Shown here piece after piece: positions 11,810 through 41,372 of a DNA stretch of 64,000 nt (position 1 is the first letter of the stretch; the number at the start of each line of letters is the position of its first letter). The DNA lies in assembly GCF_001663375.1 (NCBI RefSeq), contig NZ_LCTF01000004.1:1-64000 (forward strand), in the 5' to 3' direction. The notes beneath the pieces were generated by a model. It made no database searches. It saw only the letters and a list, made by a program, of their open reading frames with translations, and was not told where the DNA came from. This DNA is from Caldivirga sp. MU80 (GTDB lineage: Archaea; Thermoproteota; Thermoprotei; Thermoproteales; Thermocladiaceae). The translations under genes were made by a program, and so were the position numbers.

Positions 11810-12028
11810 ATGAAGAATTTAATTAAGGTTACCAGAAATTACCGAATTACGATACCTGCCTATGTTAGGGAGAAGCTAGGGATTAAGATTGGCGATTTAG
11901 TTAGTATTGAAGTTAGGGGCGACGAGATCGTTATCAGGAAGGTCGTTCAGGAGATACCAAAGATTAAGTTAGGCAGGGAATTAAACATTGATGATATTAA
12001 TAAACTGATTGAAGAGAGCTGTTTTTGA
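11810..12028 (+). CDS. vapB: AbrB/VapB-type antitoxin, C-terminus altered by an insertion
   Basis: The 72-residue protein is a swapped-hairpin AbrB domain: NLIKVTRNYRITIPAYVREK then LGIKIGDLVSIEV, which binds operator DNA as a dimer, followed by a short toxin-binding tail (LGRELNIDDINKLIEES). The last codons and the stop come from the insertion element that begins at about 12,029. Past the element, at 13,291, the codons ANEQCKSW and a TAA overlap the vapC start, which is what the original tail should look like. Antitoxin and toxin are therefore 1.27 kb apart. The altered tail is only a few residues shorter, so it may still work. Confidence 0.8.
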   Translation: MKNLIKVTRNYRITIPAYVREKLGIKIGDLVSIEVRGDEIVIRKVVQEIPKIKLGRELNIDDINKLIEESCF

Positions 12029-12050
12029 TTTTCGTGGTTATTTGTGGTGT

Positions 12051-13174
12051 TTATTTTTGTTGGTGGGTGAGTCCTTTTAGGGCTATTGAGTAGGCTGATG
12101 CTGTGTGTTTGTCTAGCCTGTACTTTCTCATTAGTTCGTCGTGTTCTGTTGAGTTTGTTGTACCTTTTGGATTCACGTAACCGAGCCTAATTATAGTGGT
12201 GCCTTCATGGTTATTTTCTCGATGATTGTGCTTCTAAATATTGAGACCTTGTGATTGTAATTCTCATGCCTCCTATCGCCACCCCTAACCCACATTAGCC
12301 TCAGCCTACCGAGAACATCCGGGTTTTCTAGGAATAATGTTTTAACGCCGTGGTGGTAGGCGTAATTAAGCATCTCGTGAACCCTCATGCCAATTATGCT
12401 CCAAGCCCTGTGCTTGGGAAAGCCTCGTGCAGTCACCTCACTGAACCAGAATGTTTTGTTATCAATGAGTTCGCTGTCTTCATCAATGATTGCTAGGTTA
12501 ATCCTATCGGTGTTAACATCGACGCCACCAAATAGTTTACCACCATTGCGTTTATGCCTAGCCATGCGCTCATGATAAACATCCATCGGTATTGTTACTT
12601 GAACCTCACCGTGAACCCACAGTTGACTACCCCTAACACCGTAGTCCCTAACCACAACCCTACCCATGTACCCAACACGCTTGGTGGTGATTGCACCTAG
12701 GAGCTTCTCATAATTCTTGGGTATTGTGGGCTTTATAACAACCCTACCAACCGACCCATCAAACCTAACCGTAGTCACGTGAAACTCATAATTGGGCTTT
12801 AGGGTGATGCTTTTGGCAGGGTACTCCAATTCGCTTTGTTGAAACATGAGCCAATCACCCAATTCAACACCCCTAAAGTCAACGCCCAACGTCCTGCAAG
12901 ACTCGTAGATGCCCATTACGAGAGTCACGGCACCGTCAGCATACCTACGATTCGGGATAATTCCATAGGCCACTTCCCTAAACATGTTCTTCCAACCAAT
13001 CTTGCTCCCAGGCAGTAGATTTTGCTGCCTCGCTAAGGATAAGACCCTATGTGTAGCTATTTTGAACAACCAAGCAGTTGATAATAACTCCTTAGCCGTA
13101 TCCCCATTAACATCAAACGGCAACCTAATAGTTATGAAACCCACAAGGGGAATCCCAATTAAGTTTAAACCCAT
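12051..13174 (-). pseudogene. TnpB-like RuvC nuclease of the element, C-terminal frameshift
   Basis: The open frame from 13,174 to 12,191 gives 327 residues. GGVDVNTDRINLAIIDEDSE holds the RuvC-I Asp, and TLFLENPDVLG holds the RuvC-II Glu. The RuvC-III segment (YVNPKGTTNSTEHDELMRK, then DKHTASAYSIALKGL) lies in another frame that ends at 12,051; the shift is at about 12,190, right after KAPL. There is no Cys pair between RuvC-II and RuvC-III, so this lineage lacks the usual TnpB zinc finger. I start it at Met 13,174 because everything upstream belongs to the conserved hairpin block. As written, the product loses the third catalytic Asp. Confidence 0.7.
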
Positions 13175-13192
13175 CCCCAACACCCTAACCGT

Positions 13193-13290
13193 ACCCCTGG
13201 CGACCGTTGGGGAGCCACTGCGGTGAGCGGCCCCAGGGAGACCGTCGAGAAGGAGACGGTGGGAATAACCCACCGCCTCCAGAGAGACGG
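13193..13290. repeat. Conserved hairpin block at the left end of the element
   Basis: This block is shared by all three copies. Three pairings can be drawn: CCCTGG (about 13,195) with CCAGGG (about 13,232); TGG-GGAG-CCA (about 13,208); and GGTGGG-AATAA-CCCACC (about 13,258-13,274). Copy 1 changes the last stem to GGCGGG/CCCGCC and copy 3 changes the first to CCCTAG/CTAGGG, so both arms change together. The block ends CCAGAGAGACGG. It could be a transposition end, an encoded RNA, or both; the strand of any transcript is unknown. Confidence 0.6.
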
Positions 13291-13300
13291 CTAATGAACA

Positions 13301-13708
13301 ATGCAAGAGTTGGTAATTGACACAAATGTATTGATATTTTACGTGATTGAGGACTCAAAGGAGCATGCTAAGGCCGATAAGGTGTTGAATAGCCTCAGTA
13401 AATGGTACGTTCCCACCATTGTTATTTATGAGTTAGCGTGGTTCTTTAGATCAATTAACATACCAGCTGAGAAGGTTGCAGAAATAATTACTAGCATTGT
13501 TAAATATGGGAAGACCACAATTGTTTGCGAAGGTGATGCCATTGAATGGGCGCTACATACTATGTTAAGGATGAATTTAGGGCTTGGGAGCTTTAATGAT
13601 ATGGTTATCCTGGGTATCGCCCATAGGTTAGGTAAACCTCTGCTCACTTTCGATGAGAGACTAAGGAGGAGGGCAGGGAGACTTGGCATTAAGGTGCTTG
13701 ATGTTTAG
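13301..13708 (+). CDS. vapC: PIN-domain toxin VapC
   Basis: The 135-residue PIN-domain ribonuclease has its acidic residues at LVIDTNVLIFYV (first Asp), in the middle TIVIYELAW (Glu) and near the C-terminus GSFNDMVILGIAHRLGKP and LLTFDERLRR (Asp). VapC toxins cut tRNA or rRNA and are held in check by VapB. Its antitoxin gene lies upstream, beyond the insertion element. The ATG overlaps the remains of the old vapB tail, so the operon was once translationally coupled. After the insertion vapC would need readthrough or a new promoter. Confidence 0.88.
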   Translation: MQELVIDTNVLIFYVIEDSKEHAKADKVLNSLSKWYVPTIVIYELAWFFRSINIPAEKVAEIITSIVKYGKTTIVCEGDAIEWALHTMLRMNLGLGSFNDMVILGIAHRLGKPLLTFDERLRRRAGRLGIKVLDV

Positions 13709-16933: not shown

Positions 16934-18466
16934 ACAAGCCTCGCCCTTTAGGGTGGGTTGCCCTGCTGTGTGGGGCTCAGTATCAGGTTTATAAAACCCT
17001 GCCTTGCTGGGGACCTGGTGCCTGGGTTGGTGCCTTTTTCCTCCTTGGATGAGCCGGTGGGTCGATTACCCACCCTTTTCGCCAACCCAGGCACTCCCTC
17101 TTCTCGTAAGAAGGAGGATGGAGGCAAGAGGACTGTTAGGCTGAGGCTACTGCCTAATGGTGCCCAAGAAAGGAGGTTGCGGAGAATAGCTGATGCCACT
17201 GCTAAGTTATGGAATGAGTTGAACTACGCTAGGTTGGTGCAGTTTAGGGAAACGGGTAGGGTGGACTTCAGGGACACGAAGCACGAGTTCTACCACAGGT
17301 ATAAGGGTGTGTTGGGTGTGAATGCTGGTCAGGTGGTTAACCTAAACAACAATGCTTGGAAATCATACTTCGAGTTGCTTAAGTTATATAGGCAGGGCAG
17401 ACTACCGAAGTTTTACAGAAAGCCATCACCACCAGGCTTCTGAAAGGACAAGGTGCTTGGGAAGAGGGAGCTAAGGATTCTGGTTAGGAACGATAGGTAT
17501 TACATTAAGCCAATCAACAATGGCGAGGGCTATTTGGTGCTTAAGGATTGGGGTTTAAGAGTAAAGTACGCTGGGAGAATCAAGTGGAGTGGTAAACAAG
17601 GCACGTTGGTGATTAAGCTTGAGGATGGTAGGTGGTTCGCCTATGTGCCGATTACCGTTGGCGAGAAGCCAGCGAGGAGTAACCCAAAAGGTTACGTGAT
17701 GGGTGCCTACGAGAAGATACGGATAGAGAATCCTAAGGGCAATAACAAGGCTTTCATAGACATTGGTTTGAATAATTTATTCGCAGTGGCGTTTAACCAC
17801 AGTGACACTGCGATTTTAATCAAAGGCTCAACAATAAAGGCTGAGTACTACTGGTGGAAGAGGGAAATAGGCACCTACCAGGCGATTAGGGATTGGTTGA
17901 GGAACCACGGATTCGAGTCATGGCGTAAATACCACGCATTCTACCTACATGCGGTTTACAAGCAACACGAGAGGCTAAGGCACTACTACAGGACGGCGAT
18001 TAGGTTCCTGGCGAAGACCTTGTGGCAGATGGGCATTGACGAGGTATTCATTGGCTACCCATACATGGTCAGTCAGAACGACGGTAATGAGTATAACACC
18101 AATGTTTGGTGGTATGCGAAAATCATTAAGTGGCTGGGTGAAGTTCTTGAGGAGTACGGCATTAAGCTCAATGTGGTCAATGAGTATGGGACGAGCAAAC
18201 AATGCTCAATATGTAACATGGAGCATGAAAACGGGAGAGTCAAGAGAGGACTCTATGTATGTGAAACCACGGGCATAAAAATCAACGCAGACATAAACGC
18301 AGCAAGAAATATAGCAAAGAAAGCAGGCTATGAAGCACCAATACCAAGGAAAATACTCAGCTACATCGTAACAACGAATGGTGCGAAACCAATAACCCCC
18401 AAGGAGGGGGCAACACCCGAGACCCCCAAGGTTAAACCCGCCCAAAAAGGGCGGGAAGGGGTCATT
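16934..18466 (+). mobile_element. TnpB-only insertion sequence (IS200/IS605 group)
   Basis: The left end is the hairpin CAAGCCTCGCCCTTTAGGG at 16,936-16,954 and the right end is CCCGCCCAAAAAGGGCGGG followed by AAGGGGTCATT at about 18,437-18,465. There is a single gene and no TnpA, so movement would need an enzyme from elsewhere. Other copies or ends are at 322-346, 4,936-4,967, 32,184-32,228 and 41,028-41,288. Confidence 0.75.
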
Positions 18467-18478
18467 AAATATAAATAA
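16958..18478 (+). pseudogene. tnpB: TnpB-like protein with an in-frame TGA
   Basis: One frame runs from 16,958 to 18,478 except for a TGA at 17,441-17,443. At this point TnpB relatives have a Trp (PPGF-W-KDK), so a TGG to TGA change explains it. Downstream, KAFIDIGLNNLFAVAFN carries the RuvC-I Asp and INADINAARNIA the RuvC-III Asp. At the RuvC-II position the sequence is EVFIGYPYMVSQ, without the usual Glu. The zinc finger has CSIC and one further Cys (GLYVCETTG). The first 50 residues are unlike TnpB, so the real start is probably downstream near KRTVRLRLLPNG. The frame from 17,453 could give a 341-residue C-terminal product. Confidence 0.75.
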
Positions 18479-26277: not shown

Positions 26278-26502
26278 CCGTCTCTCTGGAGGTGGCAGAG
26301 GTTTGTTGTCTCCACTGGCTGCTTCTCGGCGGTCTCCCTAGCCCGCTCACCGCAGTGGCTCCCCACTAGTTGCCTAGGGTTCCCAGCCTCTGCGGATCGG
26401 AAACCTAGGGTCACTGATAAGAGCGTTGAGGTTAAGTTTTTGAATTTAACAGAGGATTTAGGCATTAAATGAAAATAAGTATTACAAGTGATTAAGAAGA
26501 CC
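26278..26502 (+). mobile_element. Short non-autonomous element, copy 3 of the hairpin-rich family
   Basis: On the reverse strand this 225-base piece aligns with copy 1 (1,051-1,278) from end to end, with the shared blocks TGGGAACCC, GTGGGGAGCCACTGCGGTGA and the terminal CCAGAGAGACGG. The stems are kept while the bases differ, for example CCCTAG with CTAGGG. It lies in the gap between the ureohydrolase and the convergent aminotransferase. Its right end runs into the 3' end of the aminotransferase gene and supplies its stop codon. Confidence 0.7.
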
Positions 26503-27894
26503 GAAATAGCCCATAGACCCCTTAATAACCTCCTCAAATATCCTTAAACCATCATCCAAGTGCCTCCTCGTTAAAACGAGTGGTGCCATAAACCTAAGCA
26601 CATTACCGAAGTGCCCGCACGTATGCATTAATACGCCGTTCTCAAATAGCATCCTCCTAACATAACCAGCAAGCTTTGCACCAGGGTCCTTGGTTGACTT
26701 ATCCCTGACAAGCTCAACACCTATCATGAAGCCTAGGCCCCTGACGTTACCAATCACCGGGTACCTGTCTGCCATGTCCTCGAAGGTCCTCCTCGCGTAT
26801 TCACCCAACTGAAGTGTCCTATCCAGTAGGTTCCTCGACTGTATGTACTCGATGGTTGCTGCTCCAGCGGCGAGAGCAAGTGGATTAGCCCTATAGGTGC
26901 CTAGGTGAAACATCTCCGGCAGTTTCTCGTCGTAGTCAGCCCTATAGGCCACCACTGACATGGGTATTCCGCCACCGATTGCCTTTGACATGCACATGAT
27001 GTCTGGTGTAATCCCAAAGTGCTCCACTGCCCACCACTTACCGGTTCTACCAACGCCGGTCTGAACCTCATCCACAATTAACAGTACGCCATGTCTATCG
27101 GCGATATCCCTAAGGCCCTTGAGGAAGCCCCTTGGTGGAACTATGTAACCACCCTCACCCTGCACAGGCTCAACGATTATAGCACCCACCTGGCCAATGC
27201 CTGAGTATGGGTCACTGAGCAGGTGCTCAATGTAATTAAGGATGGCATTACCACAGTCCTCGGCATCCTTAGCTGGTAATGGACACCTGTACGGGTATGG
27301 GTATGGGACCCTGGCAATATTAACCATAGGCACACCGGCGTAGACCTGCAACTCAGTCTTAGCCGTAGCCGTAACAATACCCTGGTGGATTCCATGATAC
27401 GCCCCCTCAAAGGCCATGATCATCGGCTTTCCACTAACCCACCTGGCTAGGGCCACGGCGGTCTCGCAGGCATCAGCCCCAGTAACCCCAAAGATGACCT
27501 TAGCCCTACCCTTAAGCCCCTCAGGCAGTATTGAGTGGAGGTTCCTTAGGAACCTAACCCTAACCTCACTGGGTACCTCACTCATCCAATGCCAATACCG
27601 GCCCAGCTGCTCCAAGACTGATTGCACCACATACGGGTTATTGTGGCCTACGTTTAAAACCGCTATACCAGCAACCCAATCAATGTAGTAATTACCATCA
27701 ACGTCCCTGATCGTTGCACCACGGGCAGAATCGATTGCGAACCTAAAGGCTTTAGGGTAAACAACGCTACTGGTCTCAAATTCCCCCTGGGCATTTAACA
27801 ATTCCAGGGATTTAGGGCCAGGGGGTTTAACAATGATCCTGGGGGCCTCAGGGAAACTCAAACCCTCAAGCTCTTCCTCAACGCTGATAGCCAT
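26482..27894 (-). CDS. Class III aminotransferase, 4-aminobutyrate type
   Basis: PLP-dependent aminotransferase of 470 residues. FGVTGADACETAVALAR binds the cofactor phosphate, IVDEVQTGVGRTGKWWA holds the Asp that pairs with the pyridine nitrogen, and MCMSKAIGGGIPMSVVAY holds the Schiff-base Lys. Overall it is closest to 4-aminobutyrate or ornithine aminotransferases of archaea. The last residues (about GLLNHL) and the stop are encoded by element copy 3, so a short natural tail has been replaced; the catalytic core is complete. The neighbouring ureohydrolase suggests GABA from guanidinobutyrate. Confidence 0.85.
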   Translation of the reverse strand: MAISVEEELEGLSFPEAPRIIVKPPGPKSLELLNAQGEFETSSVVYPKAFRFAIDSARGATIRDVDGNYYIDWVAGIAVLNVGHNNPYVVQSVLEQLGRYWHWMSEVPSEVRVRFLRNLHSILPEGLKGRAKVIFGVTGADACETAVALARWVSGKPMIMAFEGAYHGIHQGIVTATAKTELQVYAGVPMVNIARVPYPYPYRCPLPAKDAEDCGNAILNYIEHLLSDPYSGIGQVGAIIVEPVQGEGGYIVPPRGFLKGLRDIADRHGVLLIVDEVQTGVGRTGKWWAVEHFGITPDIMCMSKAIGGGIPMSVVAYRADYDEKLPEMFHLGTYRANPLALAAGAATIEYIQSRNLLDRTLQLGEYARRTFEDMADRYPVIGNVRGLGFMIGVELVRDKSTKDPGAKLAGYVRRMLFENGVLMHTCGHFGNVLRFMAPLVLTRRHLDDGLRIFEEVIKGSMGYFGLLNHL

Positions 27895-40174: not shown

Positions 40175-41372
40175 TTATCTAGCTTTATTTTTGTATAACT
40201 TATAAATAGTAACATCATAACTTAGCTTAATTGCACCGCTCATTACAAGGGGTAAGTAGAGTAATCTAAGCGAGAATATGAAGCCAACTAATACTGGACC
40301 CGGTAAACTACTTATATTTCTAAAGATGTTAGTTACTGCAAATACTTTCACCCTCTCTTCATCATTAAAAATTTGAGAGATGAACGCTTGCCTGGTAGGT
40401 ACATCCATTTGCGAGAAGCTTTGCCTCAAAAATAGGAATACGACCGCCCAGTACAGTGAGTTCATAAATGGTATAAGAATCAGGAATATATTAGATGTTA
40501 TATGTGTGAAAACCATGGTATGCAAATTACCGATCCGTTCAGCTATTAGTGGGGCTATGATTAACGAAATTGCGGTAATGATACTGGATATGCCAAACAC
40601 TATACCTAAACTCGACGCTGATGCATGAAATCTTAGGTAAAACCAAAGCGTCAATAATGACTGCGTAATTAAACTTCCCCCAAATGCATCCAGAGCAAAG
40701 AGCACTGAAAGATTTCTCACATCTTGATGCAGCAAGAGACCTGGCAGATTTTTACTCATCCCATTGTGACCTACCTCAATATTCATTATCTTCCTATAAA
40801 CTAAAATGAGAAGCATCGACATGATTATGTAAAGTATAAATACGAGCTTAGCCATGATAATAGTATCACTCGTAATAAAGTGAGAGAGTAATGGTATAGA
40901 GAAGGAACCTAATGACGAAAAGGAATAACCAAGTAAGTTATATACCCCTAGTACTCTACCTGGATTTCTAGCGAGCTTAGGGATTATCCCAACCTCCACT
41001 GATTGAAATGGGCCAGTTTCCGTCCCGATGACCCCCTTCCCGTCCCAGTGGGACGGGTTTTTCACTGCTGGGGTCTTGGGCGTTACCCCCTCCATGGGGG
41101 TTAATGGCTTCGTCCTCGGGGTGGTGAAAACAGTGGGGTATCGCCCCACCGGCTCATCTGTGAGGGAAGTAAACCCCCTCTCGGGGGCACCACCCCGAGT
41201 ACAAAACACTAACGAAGTCTGGATTAATAAATGTATCGCTAAATCCCCACATAGTGAGGTGACCCCGCCCTAAAGGGCGAGGTTTGCCGTTAACTATCAG
41301 TATGCTAATGAGGCTAAACGTGAAAATCCTCATACTCTTTGCTAAAAGTATAAGATAAAGGGTATTACTCAT
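40175..41372 (-). pseudogene. MFS transporter gene interrupted by a TnpB-derived MITE
   Basis: The 5' piece (41,372 to about 41,289) encodes MSNTLYLILLAKSMRIFTFS and LISILIVNGK, the first membrane helix. The 3' piece (about 41,020 to 40,175) encodes SVEVGIIPKLARNPGRVLG, LLGYSFSSLGSF and about seven further spans including FLFLRQSFSQMDVPTRQAF, as in MFS drug or sugar carriers. The two pieces are in different frames, with a 261-base element between them. Spans 2 to 4 seem to be absent, so material was lost as well. A functional protein is not expected. Confidence 0.75.
41028..41288 (-). mobile_element. MITE derived from the TnpB element
   Basis: This 261-base piece has the left end (TAAAGGGCGAGG at about 41,271-41,282) and the right end hairpin (CCCGTCCCAGTGGGACGGG at about 41,039-41,057, then AGGGGGTCAT) of the TnpB element. 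Translation on the minus strand gives TSLTDEPVGRYPTVFTTP joined to KPLTPMEGVTPKTP, similar to the very start (SSLDEPVGRLPTLFANP) and end (KPITPKEGATPETP) of the tnpB frame at 16,958-18,478. The interior is deleted. Confidence 0.75.

Follow-up and report, generated by a model that had tools for sequence, protein, structure and literature searches.

We report that the DNA studied here, a stretch of 64,000 nucleotides from the archaeon Caldivirga sp. MU80 that we call the window, most probably carries an IS607-family unit in which the gene of a zinc-finger-less, RuvC-active TnpB-like nuclease is inverted between the left end and a guide-RNA gene; we put the probability of this reading at roughly 0.78. 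In the IS607 orientation, which is the sense of the RNA, the left end lies at the low coordinate and the right end at the high coordinate, and the unit is composed of left end, inverted TnpB-like gene, RNA promoter, RNA and right end. By analogy, the system would work like an IS607 TnpB whose gene and guide-RNA candidate have been uncoupled on opposite strands. The features are as follows.

12017–13290, no strand: IS607-type element (gene and RNA), delimited by copy alignment, the empty sites of sister copies and the IS607 left-end match of relatives
12017–12060, plus: IS607-like left end, flanking the gene on its 3' side, homologous to ends of all short copies
12054–13147, minus: zinc-finger-less TnpB-like gene, frameshifted near 12191, with RuvC-I (GGVDVNTDR) and RuvC-II (FLENPD) in the main frame
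12054–12191, minus: C-terminal piece VNPKGTTNSTEHDELMRKYRLDKHTASAY with RuvC-III in the other frame, A1 profile match 320–365
13164–13169, plus: TATA-like box (TTTAAA) before the RNA, in register with the short copies
13191–13288, plus: structured RNA, candidate guide-RNA scaffold (R1 match 13163–13288, plus, 62.9 bits)
13289–13290, plus: GG exchange dinucleotide of the right end, from which the presumed guide begins in the flank
1052–1278, plus: RNA-only short copy with left-end remnant, TATA box (1106–1113), RNA (1137–1276) and GG
26278–26512, minus: RNA-only short copy, RNA at 26280–26414

The structured RNA and its strand

The block upstream of the gene is a true RNA structure, about 140 nt long and strongly covarying; it sits on the strand opposite the gene and reads outward from the element. 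The earlier note had placed a structured block directly upstream of a start at 13,174. The block is indeed found there, at about 13191–13288, but the homologues put the gene start near 13147 rather than 13174, and the RNA is on the plus strand. Compared with the other copies, the RNA copy in the window has an internal deletion of about 33 nt. In Rfam the window block matched no known family at gathering score.

We assigned the RNA to the strand opposite the gene because the wobble pairs favour that strand: in an alignment of 40 copies of the block, the RNA strand has 246 G-U and 38 A-C pairs versus 70 and 101 on the gene strand, and while part of the G-U argument comes from alignments fitted to a structure (A4), this first alignment was not fitted. 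RNAalifold gave −89.9 kcal/mol for the RNA strand of the 40 copies versus −74.8 kcal/mol for the gene strand. Additionally, a covariance model (R1), built from 35 sequences (A3) and searched over 92 homologue loci, found 33 distinct matches near homologous genes, 31 of them divergent, that is, on the opposite strand, and 32 located 30–275 nt upstream of the gene start. Wherever a match ends exactly, GG are the first bases of the flank. Compensatory changes were seen in 30 of the 32 pairs of the R1 matches, a number reached by none of 500 shuffles and falling to 9–11 in slid controls, and 93.5% of the cells pair; the underlying alignment was fitted to the model and is hence biased towards it. 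In the short copies a TATA-like box begins 28–31 nt before the RNA, which is the spacing of an archaeal promoter.

The earlier note had proposed an IscB-like gene order. In such an IscB- or IsrB-like arrangement the RNA would lie on the gene strand, with the guide at the RNA 5' end and the gene downstream, and the block does lie 5' of the gene, where the element ends. IscB loci have an RNA that is co-directional with the gene and carries the guide at its 5' end. Here the asymmetry of G-U and A-C pairs, the divergence at nearly all matched homologous loci, a TATA box on the other side and a fold that matches Cas12f and TnpB, without IscB among the matches listed, all argue against this order; with the RNA opposite to the gene and its 3' end continuing into the flank, the polarity is that of TnpB and Cas12. 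On strand, polarity and fold we thus reject the IscB-like reading, to which we give next to no probability, and keep the RNA as a unit read divergently from its gene.

The earlier note had also raised the alternative of a conserved RNA at the 3' end of the gene. The downstream regions of 70 homologous loci hold no conserved or excess structure: their mean folding z is −0.35 and −0.04, compared with about −1.7 to −2.3 for the upstream regions. The expectation that the block accompanies the homologues held for 29 of 36 same-clade loci, which have an R1 match, but not for the other seven; five of these seven have strongly folded upstream regions. The RNA strand is the more stable one in 29 of 35 first-clade loci (p ~1e-4). 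When the upstream folding energies of all 70 loci are pooled, no strand difference appears (37/70), because the second protein clade has a small open reading frame (ORF) between RNA and gene, so that the region tested missed its RNA. In this second clade the R1 match is missing at most loci and Sso133 is found at some only. One exception to the divergent arrangement is L245 (2095–2369), where a single gene is preceded by two family RNAs in head-to-head orientation, the nearer of them on the gene strand.

Sso133 (Rfam RF02814, Sulfolobus sRNA 133) resembles the element RNA in its location upstream of genes for the same protein family and in its divergent orientation, as we saw in six genomes (G010, G011, G031, G033, G040, G044). 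Three Metallosphaera yellowstonensis loci, which belong to the clade with the small ORF and encode the same protein family, scored 72.7–93.6 bits (cut-off 44), always on the opposite strand; the paralogue L011 of the window's own genome gave 25.5 bits, below that cut-off. Unlike the element RNA, the Rfam entry is an sRNA listed without a partner protein; it spans only a portion of the RNA and gives weak matches to the window type. Between the two protein clades, the RNAs share their general plan but show only weak sequence similarity. A close relative, G003, contains Sso133 in six copies (e.g. C50:15166–15239) and the gene as remnants only, the pattern that mobile copies reduced to the RNA should give. 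The literature searched yielded no paper devoted to Sso133.

An IS607-type element with RNA-only copies

IS607 elements have GG at their termini and in the target, make no target duplication and lack inverted repeats (PMC6188088). Empty sites and flanks of the present element display the same GG exchange, no target duplication and no terminal inverted repeats. When the flanks were joined and looked up in related genomes, clean empty sites emerged, which place the insertion between CC and CC (CCCC/GGGG; GG|GG on the RNA strand) without duplication. The exact low end of the window copy was set by analogy, comparing AGCTGTTTTTG with the consensus GGCTGTTTCGG. In this genome GGGCTGTTTC precedes the sole IS607 tnpA by 66 nt, and the same sequence is found at the gene-3' end of the zinc-finger-less elements. 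In the relatives G013 and G017, the left ends of zinc-finger-less and canonical tnpA-tnpB IS607 elements match at 53 of 55 nt with a score of 100 (shuffles at most 29), and the right-end tails of both kinds have CAAACGG in common. The 1.3-kb units contain no tnpA of their own; one MerR-type serine recombinase of the genome adjoins a tnpB, and this is the IS607 tnpA. Mobilisation of the IS200/IS605 type (Y1) was considered and rejected; PF01797 has no match in the genome. As a separate observation, a second serine recombinase of 245 aa (L131; G000:C19:7147–7575) lacks the IS607 domain order and has a C-terminal, zinc-ribbon-like end.

The RNA occupies the usual place of an IS607 guide RNA, at the right end with the scaffold 5' and the flank 3'; the nuclease gene is therefore the inverted part. 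On the expected TAM side, ahead of the element's GG, 27 of the 37 insertions have G at −1 and 28 have A or T at −2. The TAM of ISXfa1 is GGG (PMC10711439), and AGGAG or GAGGG serve as TAMs of IS607 TnpBs (PMC11061315). In the window the element is flanked by a gene for a MazE/VapB-like antitoxin (11810–12028) and one for a PIN (VapC-like) toxin (13301–13708); the sequence suggests that the antitoxin formerly ended right at the insertion point, whereas it now ends in element sequence.

The own genome holds 51 copies of the RNA by the covariance model and 42 by blastn, compared with about five open full-length nuclease genes. The earlier proposal of non-autonomous short copies that keep the block and have lost the gene is supported. 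Three of the RNA copies lie in the window, namely the target copy and those of the two short copies in the feature list. Short copies measure about 200–250 bp and comprise the RNA and some 40 nt from the opposite end, while long copies are about 1.3 kb.

These short copies bear on two further explanations. Both ends are always kept in them, and end sequences are needed by the IS607 TnpA (PMC6188088), as would be the case if the block were a transposase-binding DNA end only, with a non-functional RNA and the gene as a passenger. However, IS607 TnpA reads short direct repeats rather than hairpins, the structure is absent from canonical IS607 elements with the same left ends, and a DNA site is not expected to show a strand-specific, G-U-tolerant covarying structure of about 140 nt together with a promoter; we regard this explanation as quite improbable. 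Alternatively, the RNA could be an antisense regulator of gene or element instead of a guide, given that many Sulfolobus RNAs antisense to transposase genes are taken as silencers (PMC3674436). This we consider very improbable: the RNA has no overlap with the gene, stops at the element border to be continued in the flank, is kept by gene-less copies and is conserved in secondary structure. A guide-RNA scaffold at the right end is the reading that we prefer.

Elsewhere in the window, a canonical zinc-finger TnpB gene (about 17132–18478, plus) has a conserved hairpin block just upstream (17048–17088), of which an inverted copy (83%) without a gene is found at 41118–41158. These two blocks may represent a second RNA and short-copy family.

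The zinc-finger-less protein family

The window copy is a decayed, frameshifted member of a zinc-finger-less TnpB-like family. The earlier note had seen RuvC-I, -II and -III in a 327-residue ORF. This ORF (12194–13174, minus) does contain segments resembling RuvC-I and RuvC-II, but it ends before RuvC-III (LDKHTASAY), which lies in the second frame (12054–12191) past a one-base frameshift; we call the gene copy broken because this frameshift puts RuvC-III out of the main frame. The ORF has no Cys pairs, and the assignment to a TnpB-like lineage without zinc finger is supported. In the homologues inspected, the segment between RuvC-II and RuvC-III has no CxxC pair. The RuvC triad (D209, E273, D346) is invariant in all 35 aligned homologues, the window copy being frameshifted ahead of the third residue.

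Window-type proteins gave no match in Pfam or NCBIfam (OrfB/TNB, guided_TnpB), and curated TnpB models matched 7–13 of 35 relatives weakly, below the cut-off where shown. An AlphaFold model of a family protein (pLDDT 90) resembles Cas12f and ISFba1 TnpB over its length. The best PDB matches are Cas12f (E 7e-11 to 3e-9, TM-score to 0.63), ISFba1 TnpB (8iaz) matches at E 1.8e-4, and no IscB, IsrB or Cas9 entries are among the best 50 fold matches listed; a PLMP domain and an arginine-rich helix mark the IscB/Cas9-type fold. On the strength of this model, the family is predicted to have a fold of the TnpB/Cas12 type. We did not file it as canonical TnpB, because the zinc finger, a co-directional 3' RNA and agreement with the curated models were each looked for and not found.

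The zinc-finger-less TnpB-like family is widespread in Thermoproteota. Within the taxonomic family 15 of 25 genomes contain it, within the class 24 of 81, and a scan of genome contigs gave 125 relatives; the named records among these come from Desulfurococcales, Metallosphaera, Thermococcus, Aeropyrum, Vulcanisaeta and Thermocladium as well as several uncultured groups. The window's own genome (G000; 2.26 Mb, 86 contigs) has four near-intact copies of the same type (L002–L005), several fragments and the distant paralogue L011. A tree of zinc-finger-less and canonical TnpBs has long branches; it supports two clades only and yields no conclusion on a single origin. Among canonical IS607 elements of the same archaeal family, four tnpB genes (L254, L256, L257, L265) show a degenerate zinc finger (CPIH ... 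C) without a CxxC pair.

In the second clade, an ORF of 48–54 aa lies between RNA and nuclease gene, 150–200 nt upstream of the gene (L049, L059, L069, L175, L186, L192, L198 and others). These small ORFs are DNA-binding-like: one is an RHH match, and one of AbrB-like appearance had no Pfam match when tested. They may encode a regulator of the nuclease. Such an ORF, together with the loss of the zinc finger, would also fit a system for RNA-programmed DNA binding rather than cutting, be it a TldR-like repressor or a control of replication or transposition. We consider this unlikely, as the RuvC triad is invariant throughout the aligned members; known TldRs, by contrast, have lost the catalytic residues. 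A family protein that cuts remains our preferred reading.

Proposed mechanism and comparison with known systems

In the mechanism that we propose, transcription of the RNA would start at its own promoter and continue across the right end into the flank, giving a transcript with a 5' scaffold and a 3' guide, the polarity of TnpB and Cas12. The nuclease would bind this RNA and cut guide-matching DNA next to a G-rich motif. We infer RNA-guided cleavage by the family protein from the sequence; the target would be the emptied donor site or an allele that lacks the element, and such cutting would favour retention and spread. A separate IS607 TnpA, encoded by its own element with the common left end, would mobilise the units in trans. 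The RNA-only copies would serve the few nuclease genes as additional sources of guides in trans, and they probably do so, because the genome has 51 RNA copies versus about five open full-length genes.

The dozens of RNA-only copies suggest that one nuclease is served by many scattered guides. A more far-reaching version is one we would back at even odds: a dispersed, CRISPR-like repertoire of few zinc-finger-less nucleases and some 50 RNA-only copies as trans guides, with a different flank in each, in which the gene inversion would have freed the guide RNA from the nuclease mRNA, and in which Sso133 and related RNAs of Sulfolobales and further Thermoproteota would likewise be these guides.

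In known TnpB systems, the nuclease gene has the guide RNA linked to its 3' end, and TnpB is able to process the guide out of its own mRNA (PMC10278001). The literature searched, with most subscription journals outside its scope, held no description of an inverted or zinc-finger-less TnpB in archaea; the novelty of the inverted arrangement rests on that literature. With gene and RNA on opposite strands and a promoter for the RNA, the unit recalls Cas12 CRISPR systems, in which effector and guide are separate. The orphan Rfam RNA Sso133 would gain a protein partner, a heat-loving lineage of zinc-finger-less RuvC nucleases, about 360 residues long, would be added, and guide supply in trans by gene-less copies becomes testable.

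The closest relatives are the IS607 TnpBs with a right-end RNA (ISFba1 with its RAGATH-18 RNA, ISXfa1). They are alike in IS607 ends, GG exchange and lack of duplication, in the right-end RNA with scaffold 5' and flank 3', in the RuvC triad and overall fold, and in the G-rich flank on the TAM side. Unlike in these systems, the nuclease gene is here inverted relative to the RNA and lacks the zinc finger, the RNA belongs to a different family, lies on the other strand and has a promoter of its own, the unit has no tnpA, and many RNA-only copies exist. Indeed, the canonical TnpB guide RNA overlaps or follows the gene 3' end on the same strand, while here the RNA is at the 5' side on the opposite strand. 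IscB and IsrB with their omega RNA are alike in having the RNA at the gene 5' side and at the element border, but strand and guide polarity are opposite here, the ends are those of IS607, and neither IscB nor Cas9 appears among the fold matches listed. Finally, Cas12f (type V-F) shares the compact RuvC effector, gives the best PDB fold matches and has a guide RNA encoded apart from the effector gene. It differs from the present system, which is transposon-borne, has neither CRISPR array nor zinc finger and would take its guides from the insertion flanks.
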